Assembly (NCBI GenBank): GCA_028290765.1
Contig: JAQGJF010000862.1
Location: 1 to 7,097, forward strand
Reading direction: 5' to 3'
DNA: 7,097 nt
Source: Tardiphaga sp.
GTDB lineage: Bacteria; Pseudomonadota; Alphaproteobacteria; Rhizobiales; Xanthobacteraceae
Position numbers and translations under genes: made by a program. Numbering within the stretch: the stretch's first letter is position 1; every line of letters starts with the position of its first letter. Below the pieces are notes generated by a model that had not been told where the DNA came from, made no database searches, and saw only the letters and a program-made list of their open reading frames with translations. Positions 1 to 7,097 of the stretch are shown in pieces.

Positions 1-367
1 CTTGCGCGGGGTGCAACATGGCAACGGAGAATTGATCGACGTGTTCCGCGCGCTGCGGCATGCGCCGCGCGCGCAGGAAGCGCTGTATCCGCTCGCCGCC
101 CGGCTGCCGCCGGTCTCCGAGTTCTTCACCGATCCCGCCTTGCGCGAAGACCCGGCGTTGCTGGCGCGTCTCGCGGCACCGGCGAATCCGGACACCGGTA
201 TCCTGCACGAGGCCAATGAACCCGGCCGCCGCGGCGGCTTCTCGATCTACGTGCCGTAATTTTACACCCCCGACCGCGCCTGGCCGCTGGTGATGGCGCT
301 GCTTGGCGGCTGCGGCAAGGGCGGCGGTTTCCTGTGTAGCTGGCTGCGCTATGCGCGAAGCCGCGGC
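1..367 (+). pseudogene. Broken alpha/beta-hydrolase (phospholipase/carboxylesterase-like) copy, plus-strand arm
   Basis: This is the middle part of a hydrolase gene, entering from the left edge. Its frame (from base 2) aligns without gaps to residues 84-193 of the minus-strand copy at 357-935, with about 83% amino-acid identity up to a stop. The stop is TAA at 257-259, where the other copy has GAA (Val-Pro-Glu). Beyond it the same frame still reads hydrolase sequence (FYTPDRAWPLVMAL, then FLCSWLRYARSRG) to about 367. The oxyanion-hole motif HGGSGNG of the other copy is LGGCGKG here, so the His and the Ser-Gly-Asn signature are lost. The nucleophile elbow (GxSxG), Asp and His of the family are absent because the gene is cut at 357-367 and joined to the opposite strand. 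It cannot be functional as read. The phospholipase/carboxylesterase assignment rests on the HGG motif and overall resemblance only. Confidence 0.75.
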
Positions 368-686
368 CATTGCCGCTGCCGCCATGCAGCGCCATCACCA
401 GCGGCCAGGCGCGGTCGGGCGTGTAATATTCCGGCACGTAGAGCGAGAAGCCGCCGCGGCCGCCGGGCTCGTTGGCGTCGTGAAAGATGCCGGTGTCCGG
501 ATTTGCCGGTTCGGCGAGACGCGCCAGCAGGCCGGGATCTTCGCGCAGGGTCGGATCGAGGAAGAACTCGGACACCGGCGGAAACCGGGCATTGAGCGGA
601 TACAGCGCTTCCTGAGCGCGGGTCGCATGGCGCAACGCGCGGAACACGTCGATCAGCTCCCCGTCGCCACGTTGCACGGCGCGCAG
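2..686. repeat. Large imperfect inverted repeat (arms 2-331 and 357-686)
   Basis: The two hydrolase fragments form an inverted duplication. The arms are about 330 bases each, with no indels and about 85% nucleotide identity by hand comparison (roughly 48 differences). They are separated by 25 bases (332-356) found only in the plus copy. Plus position x pairs with position 688-x. The sequence gaagccgcggc at 357-367 is read as Arg-Ser-Arg-Gly by the plus copy and, on the other strand, as Gly-Arg-Gly-Phe by the minus copy. It is therefore an 11-base microhomology at the junction. Differences near the left edge are mostly third-position. Those near the junction include the stop codon and active-site changes. 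Confidence 0.85.
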
Positions 687-935
687 GCCCTCGAACGCGG
701 CGAGTGCCGCATCGCTCGCGGTCTGCAGCGCGACCTGCAGGTCGGCAGACTCCGCCGGCCAATCGGCCAGTCGCGGCCGGACCGCCCGCAGCGCCTGATC
801 CGGCGTGCCGGCGGCCTCCAGCACCGCATCGAAAGCCGGCGGATGGAAATGACGGGCGATGAAACCGAGCGCTTCGAGCGATTGCAGCAGCGGCGGCAGC
901 ACCGCCACGATGTCGTCCACGACCGTCTCGCTCAT
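126..935 (-). pseudogene. Truncated alpha/beta-hydrolase (phospholipase/carboxylesterase-like), with antisense read-through tail
   Basis: The open frame encodes 269 residues, but only residues 1-193 (357-935) are genuine hydrolase sequence. Residues 1 to about 160 are a mainly helical N-terminal region. The esterase domain begins near FSLYVPEYYTPDRAW (163-177), followed by a core strand and the oxyanion loop MALHGGSGNGRGF (181-193), as in LpqC/PHB-depolymerase-like esterases. At residue 193 the frame runs into the oppositely oriented second copy and is translated out of frame as an Arg- and Ala-rich tail to a stop at 126-128. The GxSxG nucleophile, acid and histidine are therefore missing and no esterase activity is expected. 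The ATG at 933-935 has only a weak GAGAG Shine-Dalgarno 4 bases upstream. A gene remnant ends 38 bases upstream on the same strand, so this was probably the downstream gene of an operon. The precise substrate cannot be told. Confidence 0.7.
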
Positions 936-973: not shown

Positions 974-1033
974 TTATCGGGTGTAATTCTCGGGATCGTA
1001 GCCGCCGTCCGCCAAGCCGAACAGGAAAAGCTT
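974..1033 (-). pseudogene. Orphan 3' end of an unidentified gene
   Basis: On the minus strand a frame reads LFLFGLADGGYDPENYTR and then stops at TAA (974-976), 38 bases before the start of the truncated hydrolase. The residues look like a real protein C-terminus (balanced composition, GGYDPENY) and not like random GC-rich frame noise. There is no start codon: going upstream, the frame enters the last codons of the SDR gene, whose stop (1032-1034) overlaps it. This is best explained as the tail of a gene once cotranscribed with the hydrolase and cut off when the SDR/HxlR segment arrived. I do not recognise the protein. With so few residues, coincidence is possible. Confidence 0.4.
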
Positions 1034-2048
1034 AAGCCGCTTTGCCCGCGATCAGGCTGTTGGCGCAATCAATGACCGTTGTTGCGGCGGGGCGCGGCGT
1101 CCAGTCGAGCAGGCGCCGCGCTTTTTCCGACGTAAAGCGGCGCTTTTGCCCAAGACCCGGCGTCACAGCCGTGAGCGACCGATCGAACAGCGAAGCGAGC
1201 CGAAGCATGAAGTCCGGCAACGCGCGGGTCGGAACCCGTCTGGCCTGCTCGCCAAGGTTCGCGCGCAAGGTCTTCGAAATGTCCGCCATCCACATGAAGT
1301 CGCCGGCCGCGATGAAGCGCTGTCCGGCGGCTTGCGGCGACGTCATGGCGCGGATGTGGATATCGGCGACATCGCGGACATCGACGATGCTGAATCCCAG
1401 GCGCGGATTACCGGGAACCCGGCCGTCGAGGAGGCGTCCGATCACTTGCACCGAACCGAGGTTCTCCATCGTCAGGACCGGGCCGAGCACCGCGCTGGGA
1501 AGGATCGTGGTCAGCGTGGTCGAGCCAGCATCTTTGATGATGAAATCCCAGGCCGCCCGCTCCGCAAGCGCCTTCGACTGCCGGTAGGCTGTGAGCTTCG
1601 GCGCGTTCGGGTCGGTCCACATGGTCTCATCATTGATGGTGTCCGGTCCCTGCGGCGGTGAACTCGCGGCGGCCGTGGATGAGGTCATCACGACGCGCCC
1701 GACCCCGGCGGCGGTGGCGGCGCGCAGCACCCGCAGCGCGCCGTCGCGCGCGGGCGCAATCAGGACATTCGGATCGCTGGGGGCGTCCGCGCCAAGTGGC
1801 GAGGCGACATGGAGCACATAGTCGCAGCCGGATACGGCGGCATCCCAGCCCTCGTCGCTGTTCAGGTCGGCGACGAAGAATGTCAGGCGATCGCCGGGAT
1901 CGGTGATGGCGGCGACGGCCGCGCGAACCGCCGGCTCCCGTGCCAGGCTGCGCACAGTCGTCCGCACCGTATAGCCGCGTTTCAGAAGCTCGACGATGCA
2001 CCAGCCGCCGACAAAACCCGTTCCGCCCGTCACCAGAACCGTACCCAT
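1032..2048 (-). CDS. NAD(P)-dependent extended SDR, dihydroflavonol-4-reductase-like aldehyde/ketone reductase
   Basis: This is a 338-residue cytosolic oxidoreductase of the extended short-chain dehydrogenase/reductase family (NAD-dependent epimerase/dehydratase fold). The nucleotide-binding motif TGGTGFVG is at residues 7-14. Strand 2 ends in basic residues (R29, R33), which suggests NADPH. The catalytic Ser lies in MTSSTAA (121-127), and YRQSK (155-159) gives the Tyr-x3-Lys pair. A substrate-side PSAVLGP loop is at 184-190 and a conserved FSIVDVRDVA at 219-228. Length is normal for dihydroflavonol reductase, cinnamoyl-CoA reductase and bacterial aldehyde reductase relatives. In bacteria these usually reduce aldehydes or ketones; the substrate here is unknown. 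The ATG at 2046-2048 follows GAGGAG (2054-2059) with 5-base spacing, which fixes the start. It is divergent from an HxlR regulator, its likely controller. It ends directly on the remnant of another gene, so it probably came in by insertion or recombination. Confidence 0.88.
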   Translation of the reverse strand: MGTVLVTGGTGFVGGWCIVELLKRGYTVRTTVRSLAREPAVRAAVAAITDPGDRLTFFVADLNSDEGWDAAVSGCDYVLHVASPLGADAPSDPNVLIAPARDGALRVLRAATAAGVGRVVMTSSTAAASSPPQGPDTINDETMWTDPNAPKLTAYRQSKALAERAAWDFIIKDAGSTTLTTILPSAVLGPVLTMENLGSVQVIGRLLDGRVPGNPRLGFSIVDVRDVADIHIRAMTSPQAAGQRFIAAGDFMWMADISKTLRANLGEQARRVPTRALPDFMLRLASLFDRSLTAVTPGLGQKRRFTSEKARRLLDWTPRPAATTVIDCANSLIAGKAA

Positions 2049-2178
2049 ACCCGCTCCTCATCGATCGTCTGGCGCCCGCGCATCAAATCGCAGGCCCGAT
2101 GCGTTTTCCGTGATCCTCGCGGTATGGAAATGCGTGTTACATGGCTTACTTCAAGTAGGATGAAAACGGATACCTGGC
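2049..2178. promoter_or_regulatory. Divergent SDR/HxlR control region with candidate operator TACTTCAAGTA
   Basis: The 130 bases between the two divergent genes must hold both promoters. A perfect 11-base palindrome, TACTTCAAGTA, lies at 2147-2157, 21 bases before the HxlR start. A second TTAC stands at 2137-2140, nine bases before the TTAC at 2146-2149. On the minus strand the palindrome overlaps TTGAAG (2149-2154), which could act as a -35 for the SDR gene, although no good -10 follows. A 6-bp inverted repeat, CGCATC/GATGCG (2079-2084 and 2098-2103), lies nearer the SDR start. HxlR-type regulators are known to bind short A/T-ended palindromes in their own divergent promoter. The operator assignment is inference. 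Confidence 0.4.
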
Positions 2179-2598
2179 ATGGAAAACCATACTGTCGACC
2201 CGCCCATCGATGATTGCGCCTGCGCCGACTCCTGCGCACCAAGCAGCGTGGATGTGTCGAAATTCCAGAACGCGATAAACGCCATCGTCGGCAAATGGAA
2301 GATCGAGATTGTCTGTGCCCTGGTGGATGGTCCGCGCCGGTTCGGCGAGCTGCGGCGGTCGCTGCCCGCCATCACGCAACACATGCTGACGGCTCAATTA
2401 CGTGAACTCGCCCATAGTGGCTTGGTGGTGCGGACGGCCTATGCCGAGATCCCGCCCCGGGTGGAATATGAATTGACCGAAGCCGCCTATGCGCTGGAGC
2501 CGGTTTTCCAGGCATTGCTGGCGTGGTCCGAGCGATACGGCGCGGACCTTCCGCCGAAAAAGCAAAGATCGAAAGCCGCCAGCGCCCCGGTGGGGTAA
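2179..2598 (+). CDS. HxlR-family winged-helix transcriptional regulator
   Basis: This 139-residue DNA-binding protein of the HxlR (MarR-related, DUF24) family is expected to act as a dimer. The family core runs from about residue 28 to 123. It begins with NAIVGKWKIEIVCAL, then the family signature GPRRFGELRRSLPAITQHMLTAQLREL across 51-77, and the wing TAYAEIPPRVEYELTE. A C-terminal dimerisation helix (LEPVFQALLAWSERYG) follows. The N-terminus has a cysteine cluster (C13, C15, C19) plus C46 in the first core helix. Several relatives (YodB, HypR, QorR) sense quinones, disulfide stress or electrophiles through an N-terminal cysteine. The ATG at 2179 is weakly served by CGGA about 8 bases upstream; an ATG at 2160 is out of frame. 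Divergence from the SDR gene suggests it controls that gene and itself. Repressor versus activator cannot be told. Confidence 0.9.
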   Translation: MENHTVDPPIDDCACADSCAPSSVDVSKFQNAINAIVGKWKIEIVCALVDGPRRFGELRRSLPAITQHMLTAQLRELAHSGLVVRTAYAEIPPRVEYELTEAAYALEPVFQALLAWSERYGADLPPKKQRSKAASAPVG

Positions 2599-2638
2599 CA
2601 GCGCCTCGCGGGTGCCGCGTTGTCGCTCGCCCCGATTT

Positions 2639-2656
2639 GATCCCTTAACCGGGATC
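2639..2656. terminator. Hairpin after the HxlR gene (GATCCC/GGGATC), possible terminator
   Basis: A perfect 6-bp inverted repeat, GATCCC-ttaacc-GGGATC, starts 40 bases after the HxlR stop. It has a compact loop but no T-run after it, so it is a weak candidate for intrinsic termination. It could equally be part of the control region of the downstream acyl-CoA synthetase. Confidence 0.25.
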
Positions 2657-2659
2657 CAG

Positions 2660-2673
2660 GTTACGGATGTAAC
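2660..2673. promoter_or_regulatory. Palindrome GTTAC-N4-GTAAC upstream of the acyl-CoA synthetase gene
   Basis: GTTACggatGTAAC is a perfect 5-bp dyad with a 4-base centre, 84 bases upstream of the synthetase ATG and four bases after the GATCCC/GGGATC hairpin. Its shape is that of a dimeric-regulator operator. A half-site GTAAC recurs near 2700 (in aaccgtaacgtc), and GTTAC also occurs at 2136-2140 in the SDR/HxlR region. Whether the neighbouring HxlR protein or a fatty-acid regulator binds it is not visible. No convincing -35/-10 pair was found. Confidence 0.3.
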
Positions 2674-2757
2674 ACACCGCCGCCACAGGCAATCAAACCG
2701 TAACGTCAGATCGTCATATCCGATCCCGGCTGGATGTTGTCGGCAAGGAGCGGTCGG

Positions 2758-4386
2758 ATGATCCGAGGCACAGAAATTTCAATTTCTCACCATTTCGGCG
2801 ATCAATCGGAGCCGGTGCGCGAAGGCACCGTCGGCGACGCGCTGCGGCGCGCGGTCACCGATTGGGGGCCCCGGATCGCTTTGGTCGAAGGCGCCGCGAC
2901 GGAGGCCGAGCGCAGGCGCTGGACCTTTGCCGAATTGTTGCAGGATGCCGAGCATGTGGCTCGCCTGTTGCTGACCCACTTCTATCCCGGGGAGCACGTC
3001 GCGGTATGGGCGCCAAATTCCCCGGAATGGATTGTGCTGGAATTCGGCGCCCCCTTGGCCGGCCTGACGCTGGTGACCGTCAATCCCGCCTATCAGGCCA
3101 AGGAACTGACCTATGTTCTGAAGCAGTCGGAGGCCGCGGGGCTTTTTATCACTCGCCACTATCGCGGCCGCGATTTCATGGCGATCGTCGACGGCATCCG
3201 CCCCTCGCTGCCCTCGCTGCGTCATGTCGCCGAACTCGGCGACTGGCCAGCGGCGACGATGGCGCCGGCCGCGCGAAGCGATCTGCCGGCGGTCGCGCCG
3301 GGCGATATCGCGCAGATCCAATACACTTCCGGAACCACCGGCTTTCCAAAAGGCGCGCTGTTGACCCATCGCGGCTTGGCCAACAATGCGCGGTTCTTCG
3401 CCGGGTGCATCGGGGCGACGCCGAATGACGTCTGGGTCAATCCGATGCCGCTGTTTCACACCGCTGGTTGCGGGCTGGTGACGCTAGGTGCGCTGCAGAC
3501 CGGAGGCGCCCATGTCATTGCGCCGGGCTTCGACGCCACGCTGATCCTGAACCTGATCGAACAGGAGCGGGGCACCGGCATGCTGGGCGTGCCGACCATG
3601 CTCGTCGCCATGCTGAACGAGCTGGACGCGATGAGCTACGATCTGTCATCGGTGCGGCTGGTGGCCACGGGTGGCGCGCCGGTTTCATCCGACCTGGTCC
3701 GCCGTGTTCGAAAGAAAATAGGAGCACCGGTCGTCATCGGCTACGGCCAGACCGAGGCTTCGCCCTATGTGACGCATACCGCTCCCGACGATCCGCTGGA
3801 AGACGGGGTGCTGACGGTCGGCCGTCCGCTGCCCCATTGCGAAGTCAAGATCGTCAATCCCGAAACCGGGATCACGGTCCCGACAGGTCGACCCGGCGAG
3901 ATCTGCGCACGCGGCTATTCGGTGATGAAAGGCTATTTCAACAATCCCGGCGCGACGGCCAACGCGATCGATCGCCAGGGCTGGCTGCATACCGGTGACC
4001 TCGGCAGCATGGATTCCCAAGGCTATTGCCGCATTCTCGGCCGGCTCAAGGACATGATCATCCGTGGCGGCGAAAACATCTATCCCCGCGAAATCGAGGA
4101 ACTTCTGTGCCGTTATCCCGGCGTCATCGATGTCGCGGTCGTCGGCGTGCCGGATGAGGTCTGGGGAGAAATTCCCGCAGCCGTCATCCGTTGCGCCGGC
4201 GAGAATCGGCCAAGCGAGGACGACCTGTTCGATTTCTGCCGGCAGCATCTGGCGCCCTACAAAACCCCGCGGCTCTGGCGCTTCGTCGACCAGTTTCCGC
4301 AAACCGCGTCCGGCAAGGTGCAAAAATTCGTATTGCGCGACCAGTTCCGGCCGGAGCGTCGGGATCCCTCTTTGCTGCCAGGCTAG
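2758..4386 (+). CDS. Medium/long-chain acyl-CoA synthetase, ACSF2-like (AMP-binding, ANL superfamily)
   Basis: This 542-residue enzyme activates a fatty acid with ATP to acyl-AMP, then transfers it to CoA, feeding beta-oxidation or lipid synthesis in the cytosol. All ANL motifs are intact: phosphate-binding loop [11 protein letters not shown] (189-199), substrate-side PLFHTAG (231-237), GGAPVSS (305-311), adenine-binding GYGQTEAS (328-335), the ATP-binding Asp in GWLHTGDLG (408-416), and the hinge with [20 protein letters not shown] (428-447). TASGKVQK (517-524) contains the catalytic Lys520. The IYPREIE segment, [10 protein letters not shown] and overall length match the ACSF2/FadD-like branch better than acetyl-CoA synthetase. 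Start choice: ATG at 2758 has AAGGAG (2745-2750) seven bases upstream; an in-frame TTG at 2734 precedes that site and was rejected. It appears monocistronic, transcribed toward the RTX gene, with its stop codon inside the 20-base repeat at 4381-4440. Chain-length preference cannot be read from sequence. Confidence 0.92.
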
Positions 4387-4441: not shown

Positions 4442-6625
4442 TCACAGGTGAAAATCGGTGACCGCCAGCGTGCTGGCGTTGACGTAGATGCTGAAATCGG
4501 CGGTTCCGTTGCCGTCAAGGTCGCCCTGCAGGAGGTGGTCGGCGTAGCGCAGTTCGCCGGCGTTGTTGCTGAAGCCCGCGGTGCCGACATAGTTGAACGC
4601 CTGATCGCCGGCCAAACCGGTATTGGCATCGATCGCCGACAGGTCGATCTGGTCGAACTGCGCGGAGGAGAAATCGACGATATGGTCCTCGGCGCCGAGC
4701 TTGCTGTCGTCGGTCGTCTTGAAGACGAATGTGTCGACCCATGGAGAACTGCCGGCCTGATCGCCGATCAGGGTGTCCTGGCCAAGGCCGCCGATCAGGA
4801 TGTCGTTGCCGTCCCCACCCTTGAGCACATCGTTGCCGGCTCCGCCGTCGAGCGTATCGTGGCCAAACCGTCCGCCATCGAGAACGTTGGCGCCGTCGTC
4901 GCCGGTCAGCGTGTCGTCGCCGAGCCCGCCGGTCAGGTTCTCGATGGAATCGATGGTGTCGCCTGCCGCATCGCCACCGGTCGATGTATGCAGCGCGAGA
5001 TTAATGCTGACGGCGGTGAAGGTGTCGCCATAGGCGACGGTGTCGCTGCCGGCGCCGCCGGCGAAGGCATCGGTGCCAGCGCCGCCATACAGGGTGTCGT
5101 TGCCGTCGCCGCCCCACAATTGGTCGCTGCCGGCGTCGCCGAACAGCAGGTCGTCGCCAGTGCCGCCGAGCAACAAATCATTGCCGCCGCCACCATGCAG
5201 CGTATCGTTCTGCTCGCGGCCGTCGAGAGTGTCGTTGCCGGCGCCGCCGGTGAGCACATTGGCGGCGAGATTGCCCGTGAGCGTGTCGTCGAACGCAGTT
5301 CCGATCAGATTTTCGATGGAATTGAAGGTGTCGCCGGCGGCATCGGGTCCGCTCGCAATATTCAGCGCCAGGTCGACGCTCACGCCATCCACTGTCGCGC
5401 TGTAGTCGACGGTGTCGCTGCCGGCGCCGCCTGCGAAGACATCGGCGCCGGCGCCGCCGATGAAGGTGTCGTTGCCGGCATTGCCCCACAGATGGTCGTC
5501 GCCTGTGCCGCCGTTGAGTATATCATTGCCCGCGCCGCCAATGAGTTGGTCGTTGCCGCTGTCGCCGAACAGCTGGTCGTCGCCGCTGCCGCCGGTGAGT
5601 GAATCGTTGCCGGTGCCGCCATGCGCAACAATGACATTGCTCGCGGCACCGGCATTCAGCGTGTCGTTGCCGTCGTCGCCCCAGAAATGGATGGTGCCGG
5701 TGAGCTGCGACCCGGCCATGCTGGCAATCGTCATTGTGTCGTTGCCGCCGAGGCCATGGACGTCGAGACCTTCGACATGAGCGAGCGTCAGCGACACGTC
5801 GCCGGTCGAAATGCCGGCGCCGGTGAACACCGCACTGCTGCCGTCCGGCGCGAGTGTGAAGGTCTCCGAATTGTTGCTGGCGTCGACCTCCTGAACGTCG
5901 GTCCCGGCGCCGCCATCGACAACATCGTTCCCGCTCGGCACGGTGTTGCCGATGAAGTCGAGATTCCCGATCGCATACCAGACGAACAGGTCGTCACCGC
6001 CGCCGCCGTTCAGGATGTCGGAGCCGCCATTGCCGGCGATCACGTCGTTGAAGTCCGTACCCGTGATGGTGTTCGCCGTGTTGTCGCCGTGAAGAATGTT
6101 TTCGTTGCCGGCGGTGCTCAGGTTGAGAAACACGCGATAATCGCCGGTCTGTCCGTTGTCGGCGTGGCCGGACGACGAATCGAACGGATCGGCCAGGTAG
6201 GTCGACGAGGCCGAGATCACCACCGTGTAAGTGTCGGTCGCGGGCAGTGTGAAATGGAGAAAGTCGTCATATTCGGCGTTCGGATCATATGAATCGATCG
6301 AACCGACGAGAGTGCCGTTGCTCGAATAGACCGCGACGGTGGTATCGAGACCGCCGAAAACCAGCGAATCGACGTCGACCGTGAGCACGTCATTCGCGGC
6401 GCCTTGAACAACGAAGGCATCGACGTCGCCCGATGTCGATCCATAGGGTCCGTCACCGATGGTGCCGTTGGCCTGGATCAGATTGGGACGCCCGGGCCAC
6501 CCGGGATAGGTGGTTGACGGCAATCCCGTCCAGTTGCCGAGAAGGATCGAGCCATCGTCTTCGGATTGCGTGATTTCCGGAACCAGGCTGGCGGTGGTCG
6601 ATCGGTTGCTCGCGGCTTGTGGCAT
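4442..6625 (-). CDS. Secreted RTX calcium-binding protein with N-terminal PPC-like domain (type I secretion substrate)
   Basis: This 727-residue acidic, Gly/Asp-rich protein has no N-terminal signal peptide. Residues 60-170 resemble a bacterial pre-peptidase C-terminal (PPC) beta-sandwich: GDVDAF, DVLTVDVDS, LDTTVAVYSSNG, YDDFLHFTLPATDTYTVVIS and GDYRVFLNL. Then come about 25 GGxGxDxUx nonapeptides in blocks near 198-215, 291-324, 336-407, 460-531 and 566-620, which fold as calcium-filled beta-rolls. Between blocks are two copies of a spacer of the form SDTV-Y...GDAAGDT-SIENL. The C-terminal 90 residues resemble serralysin-type ends and finish in TDFHL, a usual type I secretion terminus. No protease, lipase or adhesin catalytic motif is seen, so a surface, matrix or biofilm role is inferred. 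Start: ATG at 6625 has AAGGAG (6634-6639) 8 bases upstream; an in-frame ATG at 6649 is the alternative. No exporter genes lie nearby. Confidence 0.88.
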   Translation of the reverse strand: MPQAASNRSTTASLVPEITQSEDDGSILLGNWTGLPSTTYPGWPGRPNLIQANGTIGDGPYGSTSGDVDAFVVQGAANDVLTVDVDSLVFGGLDTTVAVYSSNGTLVGSIDSYDPNAEYDDFLHFTLPATDTYTVVISASSTYLADPFDSSSGHADNGQTGDYRVFLNLSTAGNENILHGDNTANTITGTDFNDVIAGNGGSDILNGGGGDDLFVWYAIGNLDFIGNTVPSGNDVVDGGAGTDVQEVDASNNSETFTLAPDGSSAVFTGAGISTGDVSLTLAHVEGLDVHGLGGNDTMTIASMAGSQLTGTIHFWGDDGNDTLNAGAASNVIVAHGGTGNDSLTGGSGDDQLFGDSGNDQLIGGAGNDILNGGTGDDHLWGNAGNDTFIGGAGADVFAGGAGSDTVDYSATVDGVSVDLALNIASGPDAAGDTFNSIENLIGTAFDDTLTGNLAANVLTGGAGNDTLDGREQNDTLHGGGGNDLLLGGTGDDLLFGDAGSDQLWGGDGNDTLYGGAGTDAFAGGAGSDTVAYGDTFTAVSINLALHTSTGGDAAGDTIDSIENLTGGLGDDTLTGDDGANVLDGGRFGHDTLDGGAGNDVLKGGDGNDILIGGLGQDTLIGDQAGSSPWVDTFVFKTTDDSKLGAEDHIVDFSSAQFDQIDLSAIDANTGLAGDQAFNYVGTAGFSNNAGELRYADHLLQGDLDGNGTADFSIYVNASTLAVTDFHL
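4865..5608 (-). repeat. 124-residue tandem module duplication inside the RTX protein
   Basis: Residues 340-463 (5237-5608) and 464-587 (4865-5236) of the RTX protein align end to end with a constant offset of 124 residues (372 bases). Each module has a run of nonapeptides, then GGAGSDTV-Y, a hydrophobic strand (VSVDLALN or VSINLALH), GDAAGDT, SIENL, DDTLTG and an ANVL strand. At the DNA level the segment around 5041-5086 recurs at 5413-5458 with few changes. Module 2 starts with a degenerate unit (GREQNDTLH), and an odd unit (GGRFGHDTLD) follows its copy of ANVL. This is how RTX arrays usually grow. Confidence 0.8.
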
Positions 6626-6708
6626 GGTTTCGACTCCTTCTCTTTTCATTGCACCGCCTTGATCCGGCGGCGGGTGAAGGCCTTCGCACGAAGGCAAGCG
6701 CCATCGTT

Positions 6709-6983: not shown

Positions 6984-7097
6984 CTACGGGTCCAGCTCGG
7001 TGTCCCAATAGAGATAATCCAGCCAGCTGTCGTGCAGGTAGTTCGGCGGGAACAGCCGGCCGTTGCGGTGCAGCTGATGCACCGTCGGCGCGAACGG
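6984..7097 (-). CDS. C-terminal 37 residues of an unrecognised protein (partial)
   Basis: The minus strand from the right edge reads 37 codons to TAG (6984-6986). The start is outside the window. The peptide is aromatic and charged, with HQLHRNGRLFPPNYLHD in the first half and WLDYLYWDTELDP at the end. GC-rich third positions and balanced composition support a real coding end. I do not recognise the family. It is on the same strand as the RTX gene but 358 bases upstream of it with a possible hairpin between, so cotranscription is unlikely. It is unrelated to the hydrolase fragments and to the 974-1033 remnant. Confidence 0.6.
   Translation of the reverse strand, partial: PFAPTVHQLHRNGRLFPPNYLHDSWLDYLYWDTELDP

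Follow-up and report, generated by a model that had tools for sequence, protein, structure and literature searches.

Introduction

Inverted chimeric reads arise at inverted repeats in libraries prepared by sonication, and as a hypothesis the excerpts of PMC10908179 used here propose that a natural inverted repeat lets partial single strands of different molecules pair, after which the paired strands are filled in. Inversions also made up 406 of 475 MDA chimeras in the excerpted results of PMC1855051, in which at least two complementary bases, and up to 21, were present at 76.8% of the junctions. Most of those inversions were intramolecular, and complementary bases were present at only 34.8% of the inverted junctions lying more than 10 kb apart, which were taken as mostly intermolecular.

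Here, we analysed a window of 7,097 nucleotides, meaning the whole stretch of DNA under study, for which an earlier note had described two copies of a hydrolase gene segment pointing at each other. The inverted structure is borne out as sequence, and very probably it is an artefact of sequencing, library preparation, amplification or assembly, an inter-species inverted chimera at a contig end with no real rearrangement behind it. The warning in that note about an assembly or amplification chimera has thus become the best-supported reading. The divergence of about 16% between the arms, a stop codon at 257-259, a cluster of changes reaching to 350 and the position at a contig end had been missed.

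Two segments of one esterase gene face each other at a contig end

Repeat finding on the window returned a gap-free inverted repeat of 338 nt, 85% complementary, with arms at 3-340 and 348-685, in agreement with the roughly 330 gap-free bases described before; pairing the arms base by base about their axis gave 288 identical positions out of 344. The next longest inverted repeat in the window was only 38 nt (among the best 25 of 84), so the 338-nt repeat is not due to chance. The window is a whole contig, probably a metagenome contig: the contig given for its own protein, P0001, is 7097 bases long, and base 1, where the left arm starts, is therefore a contig end.

The left arm (1-356, plus strand) is an internal segment of a phospholipase/carboxylesterase-like gene, of a lineage denoted L, and is read in the plus direction from base 1; the frame is open to 256, is interrupted by the stop at 257-259 and goes on in register to the junction. 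The right arm belongs to the 5′ part of an esterase gene (357-935, minus strand; lineage R), of which the first 193 codons are present, from the start at 935 to the cut at the junction. Beyond it an accidental open frame runs on to 126, giving a spurious fusion frame of 269 residues, P0001 (126-935, minus strand), which starts in the real gene, crosses the junction and ends on the reverse strand of the left arm. With no junction, the intact gene would continue beyond the right arm with the LWSWLRDARSRG codons.

All 193 residues of the right arm are identical to the start of P0002, an intact esterase of 355 residues from elsewhere (longest contig 7675 bases, source jgi), which runs past the place of the junction as GRGFLWSWLRDARSRG, the sequence across that place being GRGFLWSWLRDARSRGAIVIAP. 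P0002 matches PF02230 (Abhydrolase_2) at residues 243-349 with 26.8 bits against a cutoff of 23; P0001 fails the gathering score, and its truncated frame ends before the matched region. The phospholipase/carboxylesterase name is carried by many of the protein matches (best 120 of 4233).

At the other end of the window, 6984-7097 (minus strand) encodes the last 37 residues of a conserved gene; some relatives have it upstream of the esterase and in the same orientation. All 37 residues are identical in the four loci L004, L008, L010 and L055, and any match was obtained in 8 of 75 loci, a comparison in which many flanks are too short to reach this gene (from L041 onward at most 3.6 kb where inspected). 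The retention of this upstream gene suggests that the right arm sits in its native neighbourhood, and that the left arm is the piece that does not belong.

Between the esterase and this gene lie an NAD-dependent epimerase/dehydratase-like gene (minus strand), an HxlR-type regulator and an AMP-binding acyl-CoA ligase-like gene (both plus strand), together at 1032-4386 and adjoining the esterase, followed by a large RTX-type protein gene (4442-6697, minus strand). Nine stretches of the RTX product match the PF00353 calcium-binding nonapeptide repeats, and the gene carries an internal 280-nt repeat (4929-5208 versus 5301-5580, 71% identical). No match to the epimerase, the regulator or the RTX gene was obtained at E 1e-10 in the 75 loci, many of them with short flanks, and the ligase-like gene gave distant matches only, of about 28-32%, in 21 of the 75. 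The genes of 1032-4386 together with the RTX gene may represent an insertion specific to this lineage, next to a conserved locus. The minus strand of 980-1031 reads GGYDPENYTR and then a stop, a string similar to LYVPEYYT in the esterase (about 418-445); the likeness may be accidental, or the end of another gene may have left a remnant here. A plasmid origin was considered and rejected: bases 1-960 had no match among 72,556 plasmid records, which shows only that no similar plasmid is in that collection.

The junction lies at a near-inverted pair of sites

The run GAAGCCGCGGC at 357-367, where the strands change over, had been taken as common to both copies. It fits the right arm completely, while the left arm fits at 357 and at 359-367 and less well at 358, where the window has A and the 59 homologues have C in 52, A in 4, G in 2 and T in 1. 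With this poor fit at 358, the firmly shared run is 9 bases (359-367) rather than 11.

The homologues were 59 segments from 70 of the 75 loci (11 were dropped as too short or identical), compared without gaps. In these intact genes the two junction sites are spaced 25 bases apart, as the earlier note had supposed. Its further supposition that the two sites are exact reverse complements did not hold: when both arms were aligned to the intact homologues, which had been proposed as the check for paired sites, an exact 11/11 pair occurred in 0 of the 59 distinct segments, but contiguous pairing of at least 9 bases occurred in 15. The commonest forms of the sites were GCCGCGGCTTC (23) and GCAGCCGCGGC (22). 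Somewhere in their length, 33 of the 59 segments contain an inverted repeat of 9 or more bases whose loop is no longer than 60, compared with 196 of 1180 codon-shuffled segments, an excess indicating that the esterase gene is prone to such pairing. In the window, two segments of the same locus are joined in opposite orientations at a short inverted repeat, as in an inverted chimera.

The join is absent from relatives. With up to 3 mismatches allowed, none of 265 genomes of a Bradyrhizobium genus (that of G003, whose locus L003 is Bradyrhizobium sp.) contains the junction sequence, and 229 contain the uninterrupted sequence; with P0002 intact as well, the uninverted arrangement is the norm, again as expected of an inverted chimera.

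The arms diverged under purifying selection

Over codons 1-85 the arms differ at 40 of 255 bases (24 synonymous, 16 nonsynonymous; 84% identity), with a dN/dS of 0.20. Ordinary homologue pairs of like identity (n = 160) had a median dN/dS of 0.21, with a 5-95% range of 0.13-0.39. Of 2000 neutral simulations, none came down to the dN/dS of the arms, and 46% contained a stop within codons 1-85. The arms therefore diverged under purifying selection in codons 1-85, with selection reaching to base 256, and the same simulations led us to reject neutral decay of an old inverted duplication. We also considered whether the left arm is throughout an error-ridden copy of the right arm, and rejected this too: its codons 1-85 break 0 of 11 near-invariant columns, and 24 of the 40 differences are synonymous.

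The left arm has closer relatives than the right arm. Among the best 120 of 1381 matches, the intact protein P0121 is closest to it, with 89% over 85 residues, compared with 83.5% protein identity to the right arm, and in a protein tree the distance of the left arm is 0.14 to P0121 and 0.31 to the right arm. Among the matches listed, the left arm is less close to the right arm than to 10 of 206 other proteins. The best 120 of 1381 matches, from a collection clustered at 90%, included no intact and nearly identical twin of the left arm. Of the arm's 85 residues, the first 39 are those of P0122, an intact orthologue of 356 residues that is not encoded by the window and comes from a contig of 3643 bases with no source listed.

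In a nucleotide tree of the 59 genome homologues and the two arms, the arms were sisters with a bootstrap of 100, which suggested in-lineage paralogues. This was weakened once metagenome proteins were added, since the denser protein tree (FastTree, 207 proteins: the best 120 of 4233, drawn from 7999 candidates, plus the best 120 of 1381) separates the arms, with local supports of 0.76 to 0.88. Distant homologues bearing indels (for example L034, L037 and L038) are out of register upstream in the gap-free comparison, which inflates their branch lengths and the counts of private bases (maximum 33 in the first part). The arms are not copies of one sequence, and our best reading is that they derive from orthologous genes of two lineages.

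These data bear directly on the mechanism favoured earlier, a snap-back or template switch within one gene copy, in the cell or during amplification. The sites are in register and 25 bases apart, and 15 of 59 homologues can pair over 9 or more contiguous bases, which would suit it. Such an event gives identical arms if new and neutral decay of both arms if old, but what we observed are arms identical at 84% over codons 1-85, far beyond copying errors, with selected differences, and with different intact genes as their nearest relatives, the left arm being closer to these than to its partner. We consider this mechanism barely credible.

A cluster of unusual changes abuts the junction

Downstream of base 256 the left arm changes character. 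The stop and seven other changes at near-invariant residues form an error-like cluster (257-350, plus strand), at bases 257, 261, 303, 311, 319, 323, 337 and 350, all of them transversions to T or G, with the effects E to stop, Y to F, H to L, S to C, N to K, R to G, W to C and D to Y. Among 206 proteins the left-arm residues at these positions occurred 0, 1, 0, 1, 0, 0, 0 and 0 times. Seven of the eight bases were seen in none of the 59 homologues. For the homologues, counted over the same stretch, the median number of such private bases is 0 and the highest 4, and the left arm itself carries only 2 in the 255 bases that precede the cluster. Between the arms, codons 86-110 hold 5 nonsynonymous and 2 synonymous differences with the stop excluded, compared with medians of 1 and 5 in the 160 homologue pairs. 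Transitions and transversions are 20:20 over codons 1-85, a ratio that gives a chance of about 0.004 for eight transversions out of eight. Near-invariant columns are broken at 0 of 11 before 257 and at 8 of 31 after it, a difference that is not significant (Fisher p = 0.086). The right arm has a single base that no homologue shows, at 519, remote from the junction overlap.

These features suggest that the cluster consists of read errors, and its pattern is roughly what one poor read running rightward to the junction would leave. According to the excerpts of PMC4787001, Illumina errors climb towards read ends and indels are far rarer; substitutions in its example data set lead to G from A, C or T and from G mostly to T, MiSeq sets favouring G and T and HiSeq sets G. 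The fit to this published spectrum is partial: A to T accounts for three of the eight changes, whereas the example set favours A to G, and six of the eight lead to T, whereas the HiSeq sets favour G.

The gene is normally present once per genome

A first scan gave at least 40 homologous loci, 29 of them from Bradyrhizobium and most of the others from related alphaproteobacteria. In the same 265 genomes, with at most 12 first-look candidates scored per genome, the esterase gene was matched in 262, and twice in only three (G005, G154 and G173), indicating that it is normally present once. The two matches in G173 look like one gene broken by a frame change, and those in G154 like two contig fragments. 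G005 has two full-length matches on separate contigs (C137 and C139, loci L073 and L060; 79% and 78% to the query), which point to a genuine second copy or else to a bin of mixed origin.

These counts have to be set against a real rearrangement, in which a second, diverged and functional copy, for example acquired from a relative, was joined head-on by a recent template switch at microhomology; both copies would have been truncated, and the left one would then have gained its stop. Both arms do look selected until recently, a suitable near-inverted repeat is present, the arms are sisters among the genome homologues, as an in-lineage duplication would also make them, and G005 has matches on two contigs. 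But two matches occur in only 3 of 265 genomes, apparently as pieces of one gene in two of these, the junction was found in none of the 265, the structure stands exactly at a contig end, and eight changes of one kind within 94 bases by the junction are unlike neutral decay. We regard such a rearrangement as improbable. Its most specific form, the acquisition of a sister-species orthologue followed by a very recent microhomology-mediated head-on fusion in which error-prone synthesis left the transversions in the 94-base stretch, is very improbable.

Strands of two species may have annealed at the paired sites

For the inter-species chimera that we favour, the following course can be proposed. 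From 357 rightwards the contig would be the true locus of an organism R, Bradyrhizobium-like, and would break off within the esterase gene of R. Bases 1-356 would be the orthologous gene of a second, related organism L that was present in the same sample, placed in the reverse orientation. Single strands of the same sense, derived from two molecules, may have annealed at the near-inverted pair GCCGCGGCT / AGCCGCGGC, whose sites lie 25 bases apart in the intact gene; the annealed end would then have been filled in, and a single low-quality read across the product could have extended the contig. Library preparation, amplification and assembly are all possible stages for the join. Strands from a mixed community could come from two species, so that the arms would be alike and yet not identical, and annealing between species would account jointly for the orientation, the register, the junction, the divergence and the position at the contig end. 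This last position and the cluster of changes are indirect signs that the junction may have low or single-read support.

An end overlap of 11 bases is enough for some read mergers. The artefact could have been purely computational, reads or contigs of two organisms having been merged on the 11-base overlap. The unusual changes do end just left of the overlap, and the sole unseen base of the right arm lies well away from it. However, both ends would have to stop by chance at homologous inverted-repeat sites, a coincidence that annealing does not need, and we hold this form of the artefact to be unlikely.

Discussion

Our analysis shows that what looks convincingly like an inverted duplication can stand at a contig end; the 16% divergence of its arms is, on the best reading, due to their origin in two species. 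Three simple tests, namely selection between the arms, private changes near the join, and intact counterparts elsewhere, help to separate such a chimera from a true palindromic gene fusion and from the fold-back of a single molecule. The matter has a practical side, in that the spurious fused frame of 269 residues is already listed as protein P0001 in the searched collection. The inverted structure is real as sequence and most likely not a feature of any genome, and should be given little biological weight.

As for the gene itself, the locus agrees with the PF02230 hydrolase of Bradyrhizobium in that the intact P0002 scores above the family cutoff and the right arm equals its first 193 residues; it differs in that neither copy in the window is complete. 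Compared with the inverted chimeras of sonication libraries, as the PDSM model is set out in the excerpts of PMC10908179, the window likewise joins a sense strand to an inverted complement at a short natural inverted repeat, and the model allows strands from different molecules. The model was described for human DNA, in which the strands have nearly the same sequence, whereas here they would be orthologues 84% identical, and its chimeras are reads, whereas here the product stands in an assembled contig. The inverted MDA chimeras in the excerpts of PMC1855051 share with this locus the inversion, the intervening deletion and the complementary bases (up to 21) at most junctions. They are mostly intramolecular with identical arms, whereas the join in the window would be intermolecular, between organisms, with amplification only one possible setting for it.
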